From positions 186,001-250,000 of the forward strand of contig JAUIJE010000006.1 of the NCBI GenBank assembly GCA_030431455.1: DNA of 64,000 nucleotides, given 5' to 3'. The translations under genes were made by a program, and so were the position numbers. The notes under the pieces are model-generated. The model saw only the letters and a program-made list of their open reading frames with translations, was not told where the DNA came from and made no database searches. This DNA is from a bacterium. GTDB lineage: Bacteria; Myxococcota; UBA727; JAUIJE01. This document shows, in pieces, positions 5,493 to 11,830 of the stretch. How positions within the stretch are numbered: the stretch's first letter is position 1; every line of letters starts with the position of its first letter.

Positions 5493-6019
5493 GCGATGGC
5501 TCGAAGCTGCGGCTCGGCGTGATCACCCGCCCCCACGGGGTGCGGGGGGCGGTCCGGGTGCGCTTGGACAACCCCGACTCTGCGGTGTTCGCGCCCGGGC
5601 TCGAGGTCGGTCTCGACGACGGGCGCACCCTCACCATCGAGGGGGTGTTCGGCCAAGGCGACCGGCTGCACTTCGCGGGGGTCAACAGCCGCAACGACGC
5701 CGAGGGGCTCCGGGGGCGCGTGCTGTTGGTGCCCCGGGACATCCTGCCCGCGCCCGATGACGATGAAGTGTATTTGGTCGACGTCATCGGCGCGCAGGTC
5801 CTGCTCGAGGACGGCACCCCGCTTGGCACCATTTCGCGGTTCTGGGACAACGGGGCCCAGCCCATCGCTGACGTGAAGACGGCTTCGGGCGAAGTCTCGA
5901 TGCCGTTTGTGCCCGGCCTGCTCGTCGACGTGGACGTCGACGCCATGCGGGTGGTGGTGCGCCCTCCCGAGGGGCTGTTCTTCGGCGAGGCGGATGAAGT
6001 CCCCGAGGGCTCGTCGTGA
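5489..6019 (+). CDS. rimM: 16S rRNA processing protein RimM
   Basis: Protein of 176 residues, the usual length, with N-terminal RimM domain (L-G-V-I-T-R-P-H-G-V-R-G-A) and C-terminal PRC barrel (V-Y-L-V-D-V-I-G, about residues 95-165, with MPFVPGLLVDVDV). RimM helps late maturation of the 30S head domain and binds uS19. The ATG overlaps the khpA stop (ATGA at 5489-5492) and the end overlaps the trmD start, so the three genes are translationally coupled. Confidence 0.95.
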   Translation: MSDGSKLRLGVITRPHGVRGAVRVRLDNPDSAVFAPGLEVGLDDGRTLTIEGVFGQGDRLHFAGVNSRNDAEGLRGRVLLVPRDILPAPDDDEVYLVDVIGAQVLLEDGTPLGTISRFWDNGAQPIADVKTASGEVSMPFVPGLLVDVDVDAMRVVVRPPEGLFFGEADEVPEGSS

Positions 6020-6777
6020 CCCGGCGCTACAGCGTGGTGGGGTTGTTCCCCGAGCTGGTGCGGGCCGCGGCCGAGACCAGCGTGCTCGGGCGGGCCAAAG
6101 CCGACGGGCGGTTTGTGCTCGACGAGGTGCGGCTGCGGGACTTCGCCACCGACAAGCACCACACGGTGGACGACACCCCCGCGGGGGGCGGGCCCGGGCT
6201 GGTGATGAAGATCGACGTGGTCGCGGCCGCCATCGCCCACGCCAAGGGCCTCGGCCAAGGGCGGCAACGGGTGGTGCTGATGAGCGCGGCGGGCGGGCGG
6301 TTCGACGATGCCGCGGCCAGCCGGTTGGCCGGGTACGACCACGTGGTGTTTGTGTGCGGCCGGTTCGAGGGCATCGACGCGCGGGTCGCGGCGTATGTGG
6401 ACGAGGCCCTGAGCATTGGGGACTACGTGCTCACCGGCGGGGAGCTGGCCGCGTCGGTGATGCTCGACGCGGTGTTGCGCAAGGTGCCGGACGTGCTCGG
6501 CAACGAACAATCCGCGGCCACCGAATCCCACGTCGCGCCCCGGCTCGAGCACCGGCAATACACCCGGCCTGTTGTGTACGAAGGACGCGCGATTCCGCCG
6601 GTGCTGATGAGTGGGCACCACGGGCGCATCGAACAAGCGCGCAAAAAGGACGGTCTGGTCGAGACCGCGGCCCACCGGCCGGACCTGCTCGCGCGCGCGC
6701 CGCTGAGCGATGCCGAACGGCGGCTGCTCGATGACGATCGCGTCGAGACCTTGGCGTATGAAGAGGAGAGCGCATGA
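6016..6777 (+). CDS. trmD: tRNA (guanine-N1)-methyltransferase
   Basis: SPOUT-class enzyme of 253 residues that methylates G37 at N1 in tRNAs reading codons starting with C or G-rich anticodons, using S-adenosylmethionine, and so prevents frameshifting. Motifs seen are GLFPEL at the N-terminus, PAGGGPGLVMK, VFVCGRFEGID, and the knot signature Y-V-L-T-G-G-E-L-A, with V-A-P-R-L-E-H-R-Q-Y-T-R-P in the C-terminal part. The start is GTG at 6016, overlapping the rimM stop (GTGA). Confidence 0.96.
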   Translation: MTRRYSVVGLFPELVRAAAETSVLGRAKADGRFVLDEVRLRDFATDKHHTVDDTPAGGGPGLVMKIDVVAAAIAHAKGLGQGRQRVVLMSAAGGRFDDAAASRLAGYDHVVFVCGRFEGIDARVAAYVDEALSIGDYVLTGGELAASVMLDAVLRKVPDVLGNEQSAATESHVAPRLEHRQYTRPVVYEGRAIPPVLMSGHHGRIEQARKKDGLVETAAHRPDLLARAPLSDAERRLLDDDRVETLAYEEESA

Positions 6778-7490: not shown

Positions 7491-7742
7491 ATGATCAAGG
7501 GTGTTGGAAATGTTTTGAAAGTGGCGCTGGTTGCCGGCGCCATCACTGTGGGCGGCCTGTCGGCCTGTGACGGCGGCACCGGTGACGGTGACGGCGACGG
7601 CGACGGCGATGGCGATGGCGACGGCGATGCCGACGCGGGTTGCCCGAGCTGCGGCTCGGCGGACGCGGGTTGCCCGAGCTGTGGCGCCGCGGACGCGGGT
7701 TGCCCGAGCTGCGGCTCCGCGGACGCTGGCTGCGGGAGCTGA
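7491..7742 (+). CDS. Small Cys-repeat lipoprotein, candidate RiPP precursor
   Basis: Protein of 83 residues with three parts. Residues 1-26 form a signal peptide ending in the lipobox L-S-A-C (Cys26, followed by Asp27). Residues 31-46 are eight Gly-Asp repeats, a flexible acidic spacer. Residues 48-83 are 3.5 copies of a ten-residue unit (DAGCPSCGSA, DAGCPSCGAA, DAGCPSCGSA, DAGCGS) carrying seven cysteines. GAGGA at 7482-7486 supports the ATG. The next genes are a DUF692 MNIO enzyme and a DUF2063 partner, the pair that modifies Cys residues in short exported peptides (bufferins, HvfA type), so this is probably the substrate. Lipid anchoring plus CPSC repeats differs from the EGKCG-type precursors I know of. 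A metal-binding role for copper or iron is inference. Confidence 0.8.
   Translation: MIKGVGNVLKVALVAGAITVGGLSACDGGTGDGDGDGDGDGDGDGDADAGCPSCGSADAGCPSCGAADAGCPSCGSADAGCGS
7632..7739 (+). repeat. 30-bp tandem repeat encoding the Cys units
   Basis: Three 30-bp units (7632-7661, 7662-7691, 7692-7721) and a partial fourth (7722-7739) start with GACGCGGGTTGCCCGAGCTG, varying only at a few positions. Near identity at silent sites indicates recent duplication, so copy number may vary among relatives. Confidence 0.9.
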
Positions 7743-7762
7743 TCGCAGCGTTTCGCCTGCGC

Positions 7763-7793
7763 GACCCCGGCTTCGGCCGGGGTCGTTTGTTTT
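7763..7793 (+). terminator. Hairpin with U-tract between precursor and MNIO gene (attenuator)
   Basis: GACCCCGGC (7763-7771), loop TTCG (7772-7775) and GCCGGGGTC (7776-7784) make a perfect 9-bp stem with a stable UUCG loop, followed by GTTTGTTTT (7785-7793). It sits 20 bases after the precursor stop. The GGAGG ribosome-binding site of the next gene (7794-7798) follows at once, so read-through is needed to express the enzymes. Partial termination would give more precursor than enzyme mRNA. Confidence 0.85.
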
Positions 7794-7802
7794 GGAGGCC
7801 CC

Positions 7803-8645
7803 ATGAGCGGCGCACGCGGCGTGGGCATCGGGTTTCGGCGACGGTTTGCCGACGATGTGCTCACCACCGACCGGACCTTGGATTGGCTCGAGGTCACCCC
7901 CGAGAACTTCATCGGCCGGGGCGGGCGGTTCACCGCCGCGTTCGAGCGCGCCCGGGCGGACTTCGACGTGTTGGCCCACGGGGTGTCGCTCAACCTCGGC
8001 GGGCCGGACTCGTTTGAGCCCGACCAAATCGAAGGGCTCAAAACATTTCTCGACCGGTACGAGATCGACTCGTTCTCGGACCATCTGTGTTTCTCGACCG
8101 CGCGGGGCTTTTACAGCTACGACCTGTTGCCGCTGCCCTTCACCGAAGAAGCGGTGACCCACTGTGCGGCGCGCATCCGGGAGCTGTCCGACCGCCTCGA
8201 GCGCGCGGTCTACATCGAGAACATCTCCGCCTACACCATCATGCCCGGGACCATGGACGAAGGGGCCTTCACCACCGCGGTGTGTGACGAAGCGGACTGC
8301 GGCATCTTGCTCGACGTCAACAACATCTTCGTCAACGCCACCAACCACGGGCTCGATCCAGAGGCATTGTTGCGCTCCTTGCCCGCCCACCGGGCCAAGC
8401 AGATCCATCTCGCCGGCCACCTCGACCATCGCAGCGGTCTCAAGATCGATACCCACGGGGCCCCGGTCCACGACGACGTGTGGCCTTTGTTCGAGACCGC
8501 GCTGGGGCTGACCGGCGATGTGCCGGTGCTGATCGAATGGGACACCGACGTGCCCCCCCTCGAGACCGTGCTCGACGAGGCGGACAAGGCCCGCGCCATC
8601 TACCGCAAAGTCATTCAAGACGGCGGCCAACGGAGGGCGGGATGA
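7803..8645 (+). CDS. MNIO-family (DUF692) peptide-modifying oxidase, BufB/HvfB-like
   Basis: Protein of 280 residues, the usual DUF692 length, with a TIM-barrel that binds two or three irons. The family uses O2 to change Cys residues of peptides into oxazolone/thioamide, thiooxazole or related groups. All expected sequence blocks are present: D-W-L-E-V-T-P-E-N-F (27-36), AHGVSLNLGG (58-67), SDHLCFS (92-98), Y-I-E-N (137-140), LLDVNNIFVNATNHG (169-183), IHLAGH (201-206), DTHGAPV (216-222) and EWDTDVPP (245-252). By motif, His59, His94, Glu139, Asp171, Asn174, His202, Asp216, His218 and Glu245 are the likely metal ligands, so the enzyme looks intact. The start at 7803 has GGAGG four bases upstream; the end overlaps the partner gene (ATGA). 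Confidence 0.93.
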   Translation: MSGARGVGIGFRRRFADDVLTTDRTLDWLEVTPENFIGRGGRFTAAFERARADFDVLAHGVSLNLGGPDSFEPDQIEGLKTFLDRYEIDSFSDHLCFSTARGFYSYDLLPLPFTEEAVTHCAARIRELSDRLERAVYIENISAYTIMPGTMDEGAFTTAVCDEADCGILLDVNNIFVNATNHGLDPEALLRSLPAHRAKQIHLAGHLDHRSGLKIDTHGAPVHDDVWPLFETALGLTGDVPVLIEWDTDVPPLETVLDEADKARAIYRKVIQDGGQRRAG

Positions 8646-9373
8646 GCCTGACCCTCGACGCGTACTTTGAGGCCATGACCCGGCTGCTCAAACACGAGGA
8701 CACCCCCGAGGCGTTCCTCGAGCGGGTGGGGGGCGAAGGCCCCCCGGGCCGCGGGCTCCGCTACTACCAAAGCGCGATGCAGATCATCCCCGGCAACATC
8801 CTGCGGGAGGTCTACGGGCGCTGCGCCGCCTACGCGGATCGGGTCGAGCCCGGTTTGTTCGACGAGTTGGTGCGACACCACTTTCAGCTCTGCCCCATTT
8901 CGCGATGGCAGATCTTCCGCCTCGCCGAGTCCTTCGCGGATTCTGTGGAGAGCTACGCGGCCGAGCGGGAAGCGCAGAATAGGCCCATCCCCACCGCGCT
9001 GGTGGAGCTGGTCGACTACGAACAATGTCTCTGGCTTGCGCGCTCCGGGGCCCCCGCGCCCACCCACGGCATCGCGGCGCCGGTGTTCATCATGCGGCGC
9101 TACACCTACGCGGTGCGCGACTGGCTCAACGCCCTGCGCAAGGACCCCGCCACCGCCGAGCCCCGGGCCGAAGAACAGATCTGGGTCATCTACCGCGACC
9201 CCCACGAGGAGCGGGCCCACGTGTTGCGGCCCACCCCCGCCCAGTTGTTGGCCCTGGCGGTGGCCACCGGGGACCTCACCGACGAGCAGGCGTTGGGCGC
9301 GGGGTTGACCCCGGACGACCTCGCCGCCGCCCGGGCCTCGCTGCGCGAACGCGGGCTGTTGGAGCGGGCATGA
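8642..9373 (+). CDS. DUF2063-type MNIO partner protein, BufC/HvfC-like
   Basis: Protein of 243 residues. The N-terminal half (about residues 5-105) fits the DUF2063/PF09836 pattern: L-R-Y-Y-Q-S-A, then a helix pair leading to F-D-E-L-V-R-H-H-F and C-P-I-S-R, then V-D-Y-E-Q-C-L-W-L-A at about 120-130. Partners of this kind bind the peptide leader and present it to the MNIO enzyme (as MbnC and HvfC do). The C-terminal half (about 150-243) resembles the winged-helix-like tail of HvfC relatives, with RDPHEERAHVLRPTPAQLLA. The start overlaps the MNIO stop, and the end overlaps the next start (ATGA at 9370-9373), so one translational unit is likely. Confidence 0.85.
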   Translation: MSLTLDAYFEAMTRLLKHEDTPEAFLERVGGEGPPGRGLRYYQSAMQIIPGNILREVYGRCAAYADRVEPGLFDELVRHHFQLCPISRWQIFRLAESFADSVESYAAEREAQNRPIPTALVELVDYEQCLWLARSGAPAPTHGIAAPVFIMRRYTYAVRDWLNALRKDPATAEPRAEEQIWVIYRDPHEERAHVLRPTPAQLLALAVATGDLTDEQALGAGLTPDDLAAARASLRERGLLERA

Positions 9374-10374
9374 ACAAGACGCAGGTCGTGGCCGGGCTCG
9401 TGCTCGGCGCGTCCATCGGCGCCATCGGCTACTTTGGCTATTCCCTGTATCGGGACCGGTTGCCCGAGGGCGTGGTCGAGGTGACGATCGAGGACCCGGT
9501 GAGCGACTGGGACGTGAAGGGGTTCGTCACCCTCGAGCCCCCGGTGTATTTGCCCGTGACCGCGGACGAAAAAGGGCGCATCGAGGTGGCGTTGCGCATC
9601 CCCGAGGGAGCCACCGTCGAGGTCGTCGAGCACCCCGCGGACGAGCGCCCCACGCTGCGCTTCCCCGCCGGGACCATCGCCGACCGCCTCGAGTACCGAA
9701 AAGGGCTGCGGGGGGACGACGAGGTCTGGCAGGTGGCGGACGTGCGCGGGACCGAAATCGAGCCGGTCGGCGCGGAGCGGTTTCGTCTGTTTCGCCCGCT
9801 GCACAAAGGCGGCGGCCAGCCCCTGTTCGGCTACACCTGGCCGCGGGGCGAACCCGACGTGCACGAGGCGGTGATGGACCGGTTCGCGGCCGCGATGCAA
9901 AAGGGCCGCGGCTTCACCAAGCCCCCCCGGAAGAAGGCCCGGGCCCGGACCATCGAGGGGTTCCGCCAGCGGGGGGCGTGCGCGGCCTGCCACATCCATG
10001 GCAAGCCGGAGTCGCAAAAGACCCCGCGGCGGGCGACGGACGCGAGCGGCTTTTATGTGCCCCAGAGCGTGTTGTTCAACGACGCGCCCCTCGAGGCGCA
10101 CCGGGCGCGCGACATCAATCACACGTCCCCGTTCATTGACATTGGGTGTCCGGACGGGACCCCCGCTAAAAAGGTCCAGGACAAAGGGGTGCACTTCGAG
10201 TGCGACGGGGGTCAGGTGCCGCGGGCGACGTTGCGCATCGTGGAGGCGCTGGCCGCGGGGGATGTGCACGCCAAGGGGGTGTGCCGTTCGCGCCAATATT
10301 TGTACGACCACCTCGACGACGCGGGCCGGAAGGTGTTCGCCCCGCGCTTCGCCGAGTGCGGCATCGCGGGATGA
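9370..10374 (+). CDS. Membrane-anchored mono-haem c-type protein in the MNIO operon
   Basis: Protein of 334 residues. An N-terminal hydrophobic helix (about residues 5-25) anchors it with the rest outside the cytoplasm. The only haem c motif is CAACH (204-208), in G-F-R-Q-R-G-A-C-A-A-C-H-I-H. Further cysteines at 260, 278, 305 and 330 could form disulfides. The first part (30-140) looks like a beta-rich domain. I do not recognise a named family. The start overlaps the stop of the MNIO partner gene by four bases, so it is almost certainly part of the system. Methanobactin operons also carry haem proteins (MbnH), which makes an electron-transfer or oxidative role plausible, but MbnH has two haems and is not obviously related. 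Confidence 0.72.
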   Translation: MNKTQVVAGLVLGASIGAIGYFGYSLYRDRLPEGVVEVTIEDPVSDWDVKGFVTLEPPVYLPVTADEKGRIEVALRIPEGATVEVVEHPADERPTLRFPAGTIADRLEYRKGLRGDDEVWQVADVRGTEIEPVGAERFRLFRPLHKGGGQPLFGYTWPRGEPDVHEAVMDRFAAAMQKGRGFTKPPRKKARARTIEGFRQRGACAACHIHGKPESQKTPRRATDASGFYVPQSVLFNDAPLEAHRARDINHTSPFIDIGCPDGTPAKKVQDKGVHFECDGGQVPRATLRIVEALAAGDVHAKGVCRSRQYLYDHLDDAGRKVFAPRFAECGIAG

Positions 10375-10381
10375 GGCGGAG

Positions 10382-10954
10382 ATGAAACAGACGGGCATTT
10401 GGATTGGATTTTGTGCGTGGGCCCTGGTGGCGTGCGGAGATGCCGGCGGGGGCACGGACGCGGGGCCGGAGCCCGAAGCCGAGCCCGAGGTCACCGTCGA
10501 CGAGGAAGCGCTCATCGATGCGGTGGCCAACTACCAGCAGGCGGGGTTCGTGAAGATCAACGACCTGCCCTACACGTCGCAGCACGGGCTCGCGGACTTG
10601 GTCAATGTGTATGTGTCGACCGCGGACGCGACCAAGTACCGCTCGGTCGATCCCGCGGACACCGACCAGTCCATCGAACCCTTCGGCCCCGGCGCGACCA
10701 TCATCAAGGAACACCTGGATGACCTCGGCGAGTTTGACGGCCTGTTGGTGATGTACAAGGCCGAGGCCGGCTACAACCCCGACGTGGGCGACTGGTGGTG
10801 GGGCCGGTTCACCGGTGCGCCCGCGGCGGACACGTTGGCCGACAGCGGCAAGGTCGGCTTCTGCATCAGCTGCCACAGCGAGACCAACGACTTCGCGGAC
10901 ACCGACTATGTGGGCGGGGTCGAGCGCAGCAACCTCGACGCGCCAGGCTTCTGA
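10382..10954 (+). CDS. Cytochrome P460-like mono-haem lipoprotein
   Basis: Protein of 190 residues with a lipobox A-L-V-A-C (Cys18), an acidic Pro/Glu linker and a globular domain (about 45-180). The domain matches the cytochrome P460 pattern by eye: V-N-V-Y-V near residue 74, FGPGATIIKE (101-110), L-L-V-M-Y-K, GDWWWGRF (136-143), and the haem c motif CISCH (161-165) near the C-terminus. P460 proteins oxidise hydroxylamine or handle nitric oxide in some bacteria; here the substrate is unknown. It begins seven bases after the previous gene, with GGCGGAG as ribosome-binding site, and is the last gene of the MNIO operon as I read it. Confidence 0.75.
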   Translation: MKQTGIWIGFCAWALVACGDAGGGTDAGPEPEAEPEVTVDEEALIDAVANYQQAGFVKINDLPYTSQHGLADLVNVYVSTADATKYRSVDPADTDQSIEPFGPGATIIKEHLDDLGEFDGLLVMYKAEAGYNPDVGDWWWGRFTGAPAADTLADSGKVGFCISCHSETNDFADTDYVGGVERSNLDAPGF

Positions 10955-11008: not shown

Positions 11009-11830
11009 ATGACCGGGCGATCGCTGTGCTGGCTGGCGTTCGTCTTTGTCGCCGGGTGTCCCGGGGGCGAAGGCGGTGAGTCGGTGCATTGTGACTTCGG
11101 GGAGCGCAACATCGGCGGCACCTGCGCGGCCGTGCCCCACATGTACGTCAACCTCGACGAGCGACAGGACGTCACCAACGACAACGCCACCCGGTCTGGC
11201 ATCGGCGTCAACGCGTGTGCGTTCGACCAACTCAACTACGCGGTGATCGAGGAGACCGACGGCTGCACCGTGCTCACCTATCCCCAAGAGAATGCCGCCC
11301 ACGGCTTTTCCGCCAACGCCGGCGCCATCGTGGCCCAGCTCGACCCCGACCCGGTGTTGATGCTCCCCGACGCCGAGGACAACTGTTACGCCACCGACCT
11401 GCACCCCACCCGCCGCGATCTCTTCTCCCGGGACGAACGCATTCGCATCGAGGGCACCGGGGGCCCAGACTTTCCCGCCTTCGAGGCCGACGTCATCGCC
11501 CCCCACACCTTGGTGATGGCGCCCCCGTCGGAGTGGGTCGCGGGCGAAGAGTTCTTCACCAACTGGCTCGACGGCGCCGCCCAACAGATGGTGGTGGTCG
11601 CCCACAGCCACGACCCCGAGCACGACGAGAGCATCGACATCCAATGCACCATCCCCGACACCGGGTCGATCACCATTCCCCCCGCGCTCACCGACCAGCT
11701 CGTGGGCGACACCGCGGACCTGTTCTTCCTCCGCCAGAACCGCGTGCACCTGGAGCCCCCCGACGCCGACGTGGCCATCGAGTTGTTGCTGACCTCGTCG
11801 GTGACCCGCTCGGTGCCCATCGTGCGTTGA
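11009..11830 (+). CDS. Lipoprotein of unknown function
   Basis: Protein of 273 residues with a clear lipoprotein signal, V-A-G-C at Cys17. The mature part is acidic and beta-rich, with seven further cysteines that may form disulfides outside the cytoplasm (C-D-F-G, G-G-T-C, N-A-C, D-G-C, D-N-C and others). I do not recognise the family. No ribosome-binding site precedes the ATG; a -10-like GACAAT six bases upstream suggests a leaderless mRNA. It is separated by 54 bases from the MNIO operon and has its own promoter candidate, so it is probably not part of it. Confidence 0.65.
   Translation: MTGRSLCWLAFVFVAGCPGGEGGESVHCDFGERNIGGTCAAVPHMYVNLDERQDVTNDNATRSGIGVNACAFDQLNYAVIEETDGCTVLTYPQENAAHGFSANAGAIVAQLDPDPVLMLPDAEDNCYATDLHPTRRDLFSRDERIRIEGTGGPDFPAFEADVIAPHTLVMAPPSEWVAGEEFFTNWLDGAAQQMVVVAHSHDPEHDESIDIQCTIPDTGSITIPPALTDQLVGDTADLFFLRQNRVHLEPPDADVAIELLLTSSVTRSVPIVR

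Follow-up and report, generated by a model that had tools for sequence, protein, structure and literature searches.

Why should an enzyme predicted to modify a Cys-containing peptide be encoded together with two haem proteins? This question is raised by a locus of a Myxococcota bacterium (assembly GCA_030431455.1, contig JAUIJE010000006.1, positions 186,001 to 250,000; this whole stretch of 64,000 nucleotides is called the window), in which five open reading frames (ORFs), all on the plus strand, span positions 7491-10954. Our analysis indicated that the locus is probably a cassette for a ribosomally synthesized and post-translationally modified peptide (RiPP) of the multinuclear non-haem iron-dependent oxidase (MNIO) type, whose product would be a membrane-tethered, modified Cys-repeat lipoprotein working with a P460-type haem. 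The features that carry this reading can be seen directly in the DNA: the gene set, the lipobox of the precursor, the intact MNIO active site, the conserved association of the genes, the fusion of precursor and P460 domain in relatives, and the Lys that crosslinks the haem. The cassette is composed as follows.

7491..7742, plus strand: gene 1, putative RiPP precursor, a lipoprotein of 83 aa with a signal peptide and the lipobox LSAC
7571..7634, plus strand: Gly-Asp spacer of gene 1, a generic linker in the window's genome
7761..7786, plus strand: terminator-like hairpin between precursor and MNIO (11 pairs, loop of 4, T-rich tail)
7803..8645, plus strand: gene 2, MNIO (PF05114) of the HvfB/BufB-like subfamily, metal site and catalytic Asp intact
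8642..9373, plus strand: gene 3, MNIO partner, divergent PME type 1/DUF2063 with a RiPP recognition element (RRE)-like part
9370..10374, plus strand: gene 4, membrane-anchored mono-haem c protein with CAACH, an N-terminal transmembrane helix and a beta domain
10382..10954, plus strand: gene 5, cytochrome P460-type mono-haem lipoprotein with CISCH; K109 is the crosslinking Lys

All five genes named in the initial annotation were present at the place and on the strand it gave, and the close coupling it described was seen as well: the MNIO and partner genes share ATGA at 8642-8645, the partner gene and gene 4 share ATGA at 9370-9373, and the start of gene 5 lies 7 bases after the stop of gene 4. 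The whole gene set was also found in three other loci, L051 and L052 in Archangium metagenome-assembled genomes (the same loci as L040 and L041) and L049 in the Myxococcota metagenome-assembled genome Prado145. In both Archangium loci, the gene before the MNIO encodes a signal peptide, a lipobox, a GCPAGCP tail (...AGCPAGCPAADAGCPAGCPATT) and a P460-type domain with CxxCH, and one polypeptide stands in for genes 1 and 5; in L052 this fused gene lies at 5840-6442. In L049, a separate lipoprotein with VDAGCATGCPAADAGCPAGCPTADAGCPAGCPTADAGCPAGCPAPDAGCA overlaps the MNIO start; there and in the window, two distinct lipoproteins, encoded at different positions of the cassette, carry the tail and the P460. 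Read from their sequences, these are three arrangements of the same five functions across four genomes. The conserved gene sets bear out the combination of MNIO, partner and upstream Cys-rich substrate that had been proposed for this locus.

The association was examined further through gene 4, which has a single CxxCH (CAACH) and no Pfam or NCBIfam match. A profile search of 195 genomes from the phylum found homologues in 4, and one more copy is in L049, a GTDB contig. Every one of these five copies adjoins an MNIO partner gene; at four of these loci an MNIO is present too. A contig scan with the single gene 4 sequence returned nothing, while a scan with the alignment returned four loci; no copy was found on plasmids at E 1e-5. 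The structure model of gene 4 had a predicted local distance difference test score (pLDDT) of 81 and a predicted TM-score (pTM) of 0.80, and no credible Foldseek match was found in the PDB or viral libraries. The N-terminus is a transmembrane helix in the window and in L049, and a lipobox-like signal in the Archangium loci; besides the one CxxCH, the family has invariant Cys260, Cys278, Cys305 and Cys330. Gene 4 represents a dedicated family of mono-haem proteins with no known fold. The copy in Myxococcus sp. MY1 (G109:C13; L039 6159-7804, with L039 the same locus as L050) lies beside a partner gene, and partner and haem protein there are 67% identical to the intact Archangium set. As for the partner in the window, the C-terminal region of gene 3 weakly resembled (E 5e-4) the N-terminal portion of the thio(seleno)oxazole radical SAM maturase SbtM; the two may share a peptide-binding domain, or the match may be due to chance.

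Gene 5 scored 28 bits against PF16694 (29.2 for the domain alone; cut-off 27) and has one CxxCH, which identifies it as a P460 protein. A profile built from 15 P460-like lipoproteins of myxobacteria found P460 and c'-beta structures, with a best E of 3.5e-6. The invariant Lys (K109 in gene 5) aligned with McP460 Lys78 (residue 78 of 6HIU), which forms the crosslink there, and all cassette P460 domains keep this haem-crosslinking Lys; 7EAD, the c'-beta protein of T. thermophilus, has Phe61 in the same column, in agreement with PMC11928373. In the column of McP460 Asp102, where the alignment is weak, the window has Leu and the cassette relatives have Ala or Ile, suggesting that the distal carboxylate for hydroxylamine oxidation (Glu96/Asp102) is absent from the cassette P460s. 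Inactive NsP460, which has Ala131 at the distal carboxylate position, is similar in this respect. A Lys-crosslinked haem with no hydroxylamine oxidase activity is therefore the prediction for these proteins.

A general proximity of PF16694 P460 genes to MNIOs across the phylum was rejected: the listed places of canonical P460 genes elsewhere in the phylum do not coincide with the listed MNIO places, so the link between MNIO and P460 looks specific to the cassette. Some ORFs were also observed to encode canonical P460 domains two or three times in tandem within one chain (G027:C241:27314-28204, G027:C15:7594-8499, G040:C680:2817-3875 and G043:C330:404-1204), and these sit away from the listed MNIO places. 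The window's genome encodes more mono-haem lipoproteins with long Gly-Asp spacers (L117 12-725 and 7977-8669; L118 8277-10121), at least two of them P460-like and one ORF 614 aa long.

The putative precursor, gene 1, has no family match in Pfam or NCBIfam. Its predicted lipid-bearing residue is Cys26 of the lipobox, found by pattern, and seven Cys follow it. The repeat consists of three 30-nt units and a partial fourth (ADAGCPSCGS three times, then DAGCGS), with two Cys positions per unit. Among the 142 genomes searched, two tandem GCPxCG units were found in gene 1 only. Tandem GCPxxC lipoproteins were found solely adjoining MNIOs; the small gene is therefore tied to DUF692 in its relatives, as the initial annotation supposed. 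Single DAGCPxC motifs occur elsewhere in the phylum. Like gene 1, the L049 lipoprotein and the fused precursors of L040/L041 are MNIO-adjacent Cys peptides with a signal peptide and a lipobox by pattern, the features of diacylglycerol (DAG)-RiPPs.

The traits that had seemed unusual in the precursor, its lipobox and its Gly-Asp spacer, turned out to be ordinary. A pattern test on 37 Myxococcota MNIO loci found a lipobox together with Cys repeats in the ORF directly upstream in 34 of them; the repeats were mostly EGSCG-like, with exact EGKCG in some (L008, L016, L021). The 37 loci are not independent cases because they are mostly from Myxococcaceae. Lipidated peptides modified by MNIOs have already been described as DAG-RiPPs and are triacylated in E. 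coli (PMC12636315), and about 16% of Buf2 bufferins are predicted lipoproteins (PMC12452194). The lipobox was therefore rejected as the new element. The Gly-Asp pattern had 5,572 overlapping matches across the window's genome and was also present in its other P460 lipoproteins, so that the spacer was rejected as a mark of the MNIO system. As a separate observation, L042, L044 and L045 hold a third myxobacterial MNIO type, with Arg then Thr/Asn/Pro in place of Arg-Arg and with IEWDE/D; no lipoprotein precursor was found upstream of the MNIO at these three loci. These comparisons suggested that the new part is the haem pair together with the precursor-P460 fusion in relatives, and not lipidation. 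A literature search of partial coverage found no paper combining MNIO and P460.

Gene 2 (280 aa) scored 315 bits against PF05114 (cut-off 25), placing it in the MNIO superfamily. The metal-site blocks, described at the outset as intact, are so: H59, H94, E139, D171, N173, H202, D216, H218 and E245 are identical in 19 of 19 aligned MNIOs, as is the catalytic base D247, and the Arg12-Arg13 pair is conserved in the alignment. The nearest NCBIfam equivalogs were HvfB (291 bits, cut-off 360) and BufB (287 bits, cut-off 310), with gene 2 below both cut-offs; scores were far lower on ChrH (48 bits, cut-off 600) and MbnB (38 bits). The closest solved structure is 3BWW. The nearest MNIO relatives found were about 52% identical and adjoin lipoproteins with EGSCG or exact EGKCG repeats. 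The EGKCG motif is converted to 5-thiooxazole (PMC13097082) and also occurs lipidated (PMC12636315); in FonB, Arg15/Arg16 hold Glu1 of EGKCG and Asp249 is the base (PMC13097082). The Asp of the DAGC repeat occupies position -3 to the Cys, that of the Glu in EGKCG. Since Arg12-Arg13 and Asp247 are present and DAGC has Asp at -3, the first Cys of each unit is the likeliest target by comparison, while the second may remain a free thiol or be a target too. For the putative Cys modification, 5-thiooxazole is the first guess.

From these features we infer peptide modification, metal binding and electron transfer in the following order. In the cytosol, the gene 3 partner would present the precursor to the gene 2 MNIO, which would oxidise Cys of the DAGCPxC repeats. 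As with HvfB/FonB-type enzymes, the likeliest products are 5-thiooxazoles, with a mass change of -4 Da for each; the Asp at -3 would replace the Glu of EGKCG and face Arg12-Arg13. The precursor would then be exported by Sec, receive diacylglycerol at Cys26 and become anchored in the membrane. There, the modified Cys units would serve as ligands for a soft metal, Cu(I) being the likeliest, and the gene 5 P460, or in Archangium the C-terminal domain of the same chain, would hold its Lys-crosslinked c-haem beside the metal site. By exchanging electrons with the P460, gene 4 would link metal binding to redox chemistry in the envelope. The function that we consider likeliest is copper sequestration tied to a haem redox step. 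A bolder version, which we offer tentatively and with clear doubt, is a new class of lipoproteins that are haem-RiPP hybrids: the MNIO would form Cys heterocycles that bind copper, either in the N-terminal tail of a Lys-crosslinked P460-type cytochrome or in a protein that partners it. The result would be a membrane-tethered, two-cofactor redox centre of copper and haem, with a new-fold mono-haem membrane protein serving it.

We also considered whether the haem genes might form an adjacent cytochrome operon that serves some unrelated purpose, the peptide being an ordinary lipidated captophorin/oxazolin variant that buffers copper alone. The examined Myxococcota MNIO loci do include a Cys-repeat lipoprotein and lack a haem gene shortly downstream, and the window's genome itself has P460 lipoproteins elsewhere without an MNIO. 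It also has a second MNIO locus of the ordinary kind (L002 1015-3032, C4:296715), with an EGSCGG-repeat lipoprotein precursor, an MNIO and a DUF2063 partner, and with no haem genes within the 3.8 kb read. However, gene 4 was found solely in MNIO/partner loci, two genomes encode tail and P460 as a single protein, and the window genes overlap or sit 7 bases apart, which makes this explanation rather unlikely. Improbable, by our judgement, is a role of the haem proteins as late maturation enzymes, in which, by analogy with MbnH acting on MbnP, a peroxidase-like gene 4 would after export oxidise the peptide further or install the Lys-haem crosslink of the P460. MbnH has two haems, whereas gene 4 has one haem motif. 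On the other hand, gene 4 is dedicated to the cassette, matches no solved fold and has conserved Cys outside its CxxCH. Peroxide-driven Lys crosslinking is known for P460, but such crosslinks also arise spontaneously in aerobic expression (PMC11928373).

The chemistry could differ as well. The CPSCG of gene 1 resembles the CPxCGxG motif found in chryseobasin precursors, a number of them lipoproteins (PMC12636315), and a ChrH-like change (a CPxCG macrocycle and heterocycle) would give a redox-active product rather than a Cu(I)-chelating one with thiooxazoles. The 48-bit ChrH score of the 280-aa gene 2 lowered this chemistry from first choice. Moreover, a partner gene is present here whereas ChrH loci have none (PMC12636315), and the relatives carry CPAGCP, not CPxCG. 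We regard a ChrH-like product as very improbable.

Several observations weigh against our main reading of the locus. Gene 1 has no EGKCG-type Lys-Cys repeat, DUF2282 or Cys-Lys motif, the cassette has no DoxX gene, and the likeness of CPSCG to ChrH substrates makes a different Cys chemistry possible. Gene 3 falls below the DUF2063 (PME1) cut-off (14.7 vs 27.2 bits); its homologues in L040 (27.7) and L049 (28.5) lie above that value and those in L041 (20.6) and L039 (25) below it, and the window and L049 partners align with E 3e-11. In the Myxococcus genome G109, genes 3 and 4 occur without an MNIO or precursor nearby; the missing genes may have been deleted, or an MNIO encoded elsewhere may be relied on. 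Identity between the window P460 and the fused P460s is low (about 20-30%), and the extra Cys pair of the latter has no counterpart in the window protein, which may therefore have been recruited separately. The MNIO tree has no resolved clade of haem cassettes, and with an approximately unbiased (AU) test p of 0.3 a single such clade is neither supported nor rejected. No metal or copper gene was seen near the window cassette; the genes upstream are rimM/trmD-like (from reading translations) and an RNA methyltransferase gene, so these neighbours give the metal reading no help.

Regulation of the cassettes can be considered from two features. The hairpin at 7761-7786, which the initial annotation did not mention, has a fold z of -2.4, and the region has 10 terminator-like sites vs 2.4 in shuffles. 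Because a strong hairpin and T-rich sequence separate the precursor from the MNIO, excess precursor mRNA would be favoured, and the hairpin is possibly an attenuator. The L049 cassette adds an extracytoplasmic function (ECF) sigma factor and a candidate zinc-finger anti-sigma gene; this suggests stress control by analogy, because bufferin type 1 clusters likewise carry sigma/anti-sigma genes (PMC12452194). Beyond the P460 gene of the window, 54 bases 3' of it, lies a lipoprotein-like ORF (11009-11830) with no Pfam match, which was not noticed in the other cassettes.

MNIO peptides have so far been viewed mainly as stand-alone metal chelators. The tie of a Cys repeat to a P460 haem, in one chain in Archangium and in two lipoproteins here, suggests that heterocycle-bound metal joins envelope redox chemistry, and the cassette suggests that MNIOs can decorate whole haem proteins. 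Among known systems, captophorins (oxazolin HvfABC, fontiphorin FonABC, gonophorin), in which MNIO and PME1 make 5-thiooxazoles (PMC13097082, PMC13419390), share the HvfB/BufB-type MNIO with Arg-Arg pair and catalytic Asp, the adjacent partner and the upstream signal-peptide precursor with Cys repeats. Unlike them, the cassette has DAGCPSCG or DAGCPAGCP repeats instead of EGKCG, no DoxX, two haem genes, a divergent partner and, in relatives, the P460 fusion. DAG-RiPPs (lipo-NedABC, lipo-DybAH; PMC12636315) likewise have an MNIO-modified lipobox precursor, here predicted from sequence and with triacylation expected, but no haem genes are reported there, and their motifs are EGKCG, CPxCGxG, bufferin and CxxxxC rather than tandem GCPxxC (PMC12636315). 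The ChrH family of chryseobasins (PMC10214503, PMC12636315) has a CPxCG motif in a lipoprotein precursor; in contrast to gene 2, which is far below its cut-off, ChrH carries a helical domain at its C-terminus and lacks a partner. Bufferins (PMC12452194) resemble the cassette in their MNIO-DUF2063 operon and, as in L049, in the sigma/anti-sigma genes of some loci. Rare Buf1|Cytochrom_C fusions of precursor and cytochrome c are reported among them (PMC12452194), so a link of precursor and haem has precedent; here, however, no DUF2282 or Buf2 domain was seen, the haem partner is P460-type, and a dedicated mono-haem membrane protein with no solved fold is added. With the cytochrome P460/c'-beta superfamily (PMC11928373), the cassette P460s share the CxxCH near the C-terminus, the position of the crosslinking Lys and the profile matches to P460 structures. 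They differ from it in being lipoproteins, in the seeming loss of the carboxylate for hydroxylamine oxidation, and in being tied to an MNIO substrate.

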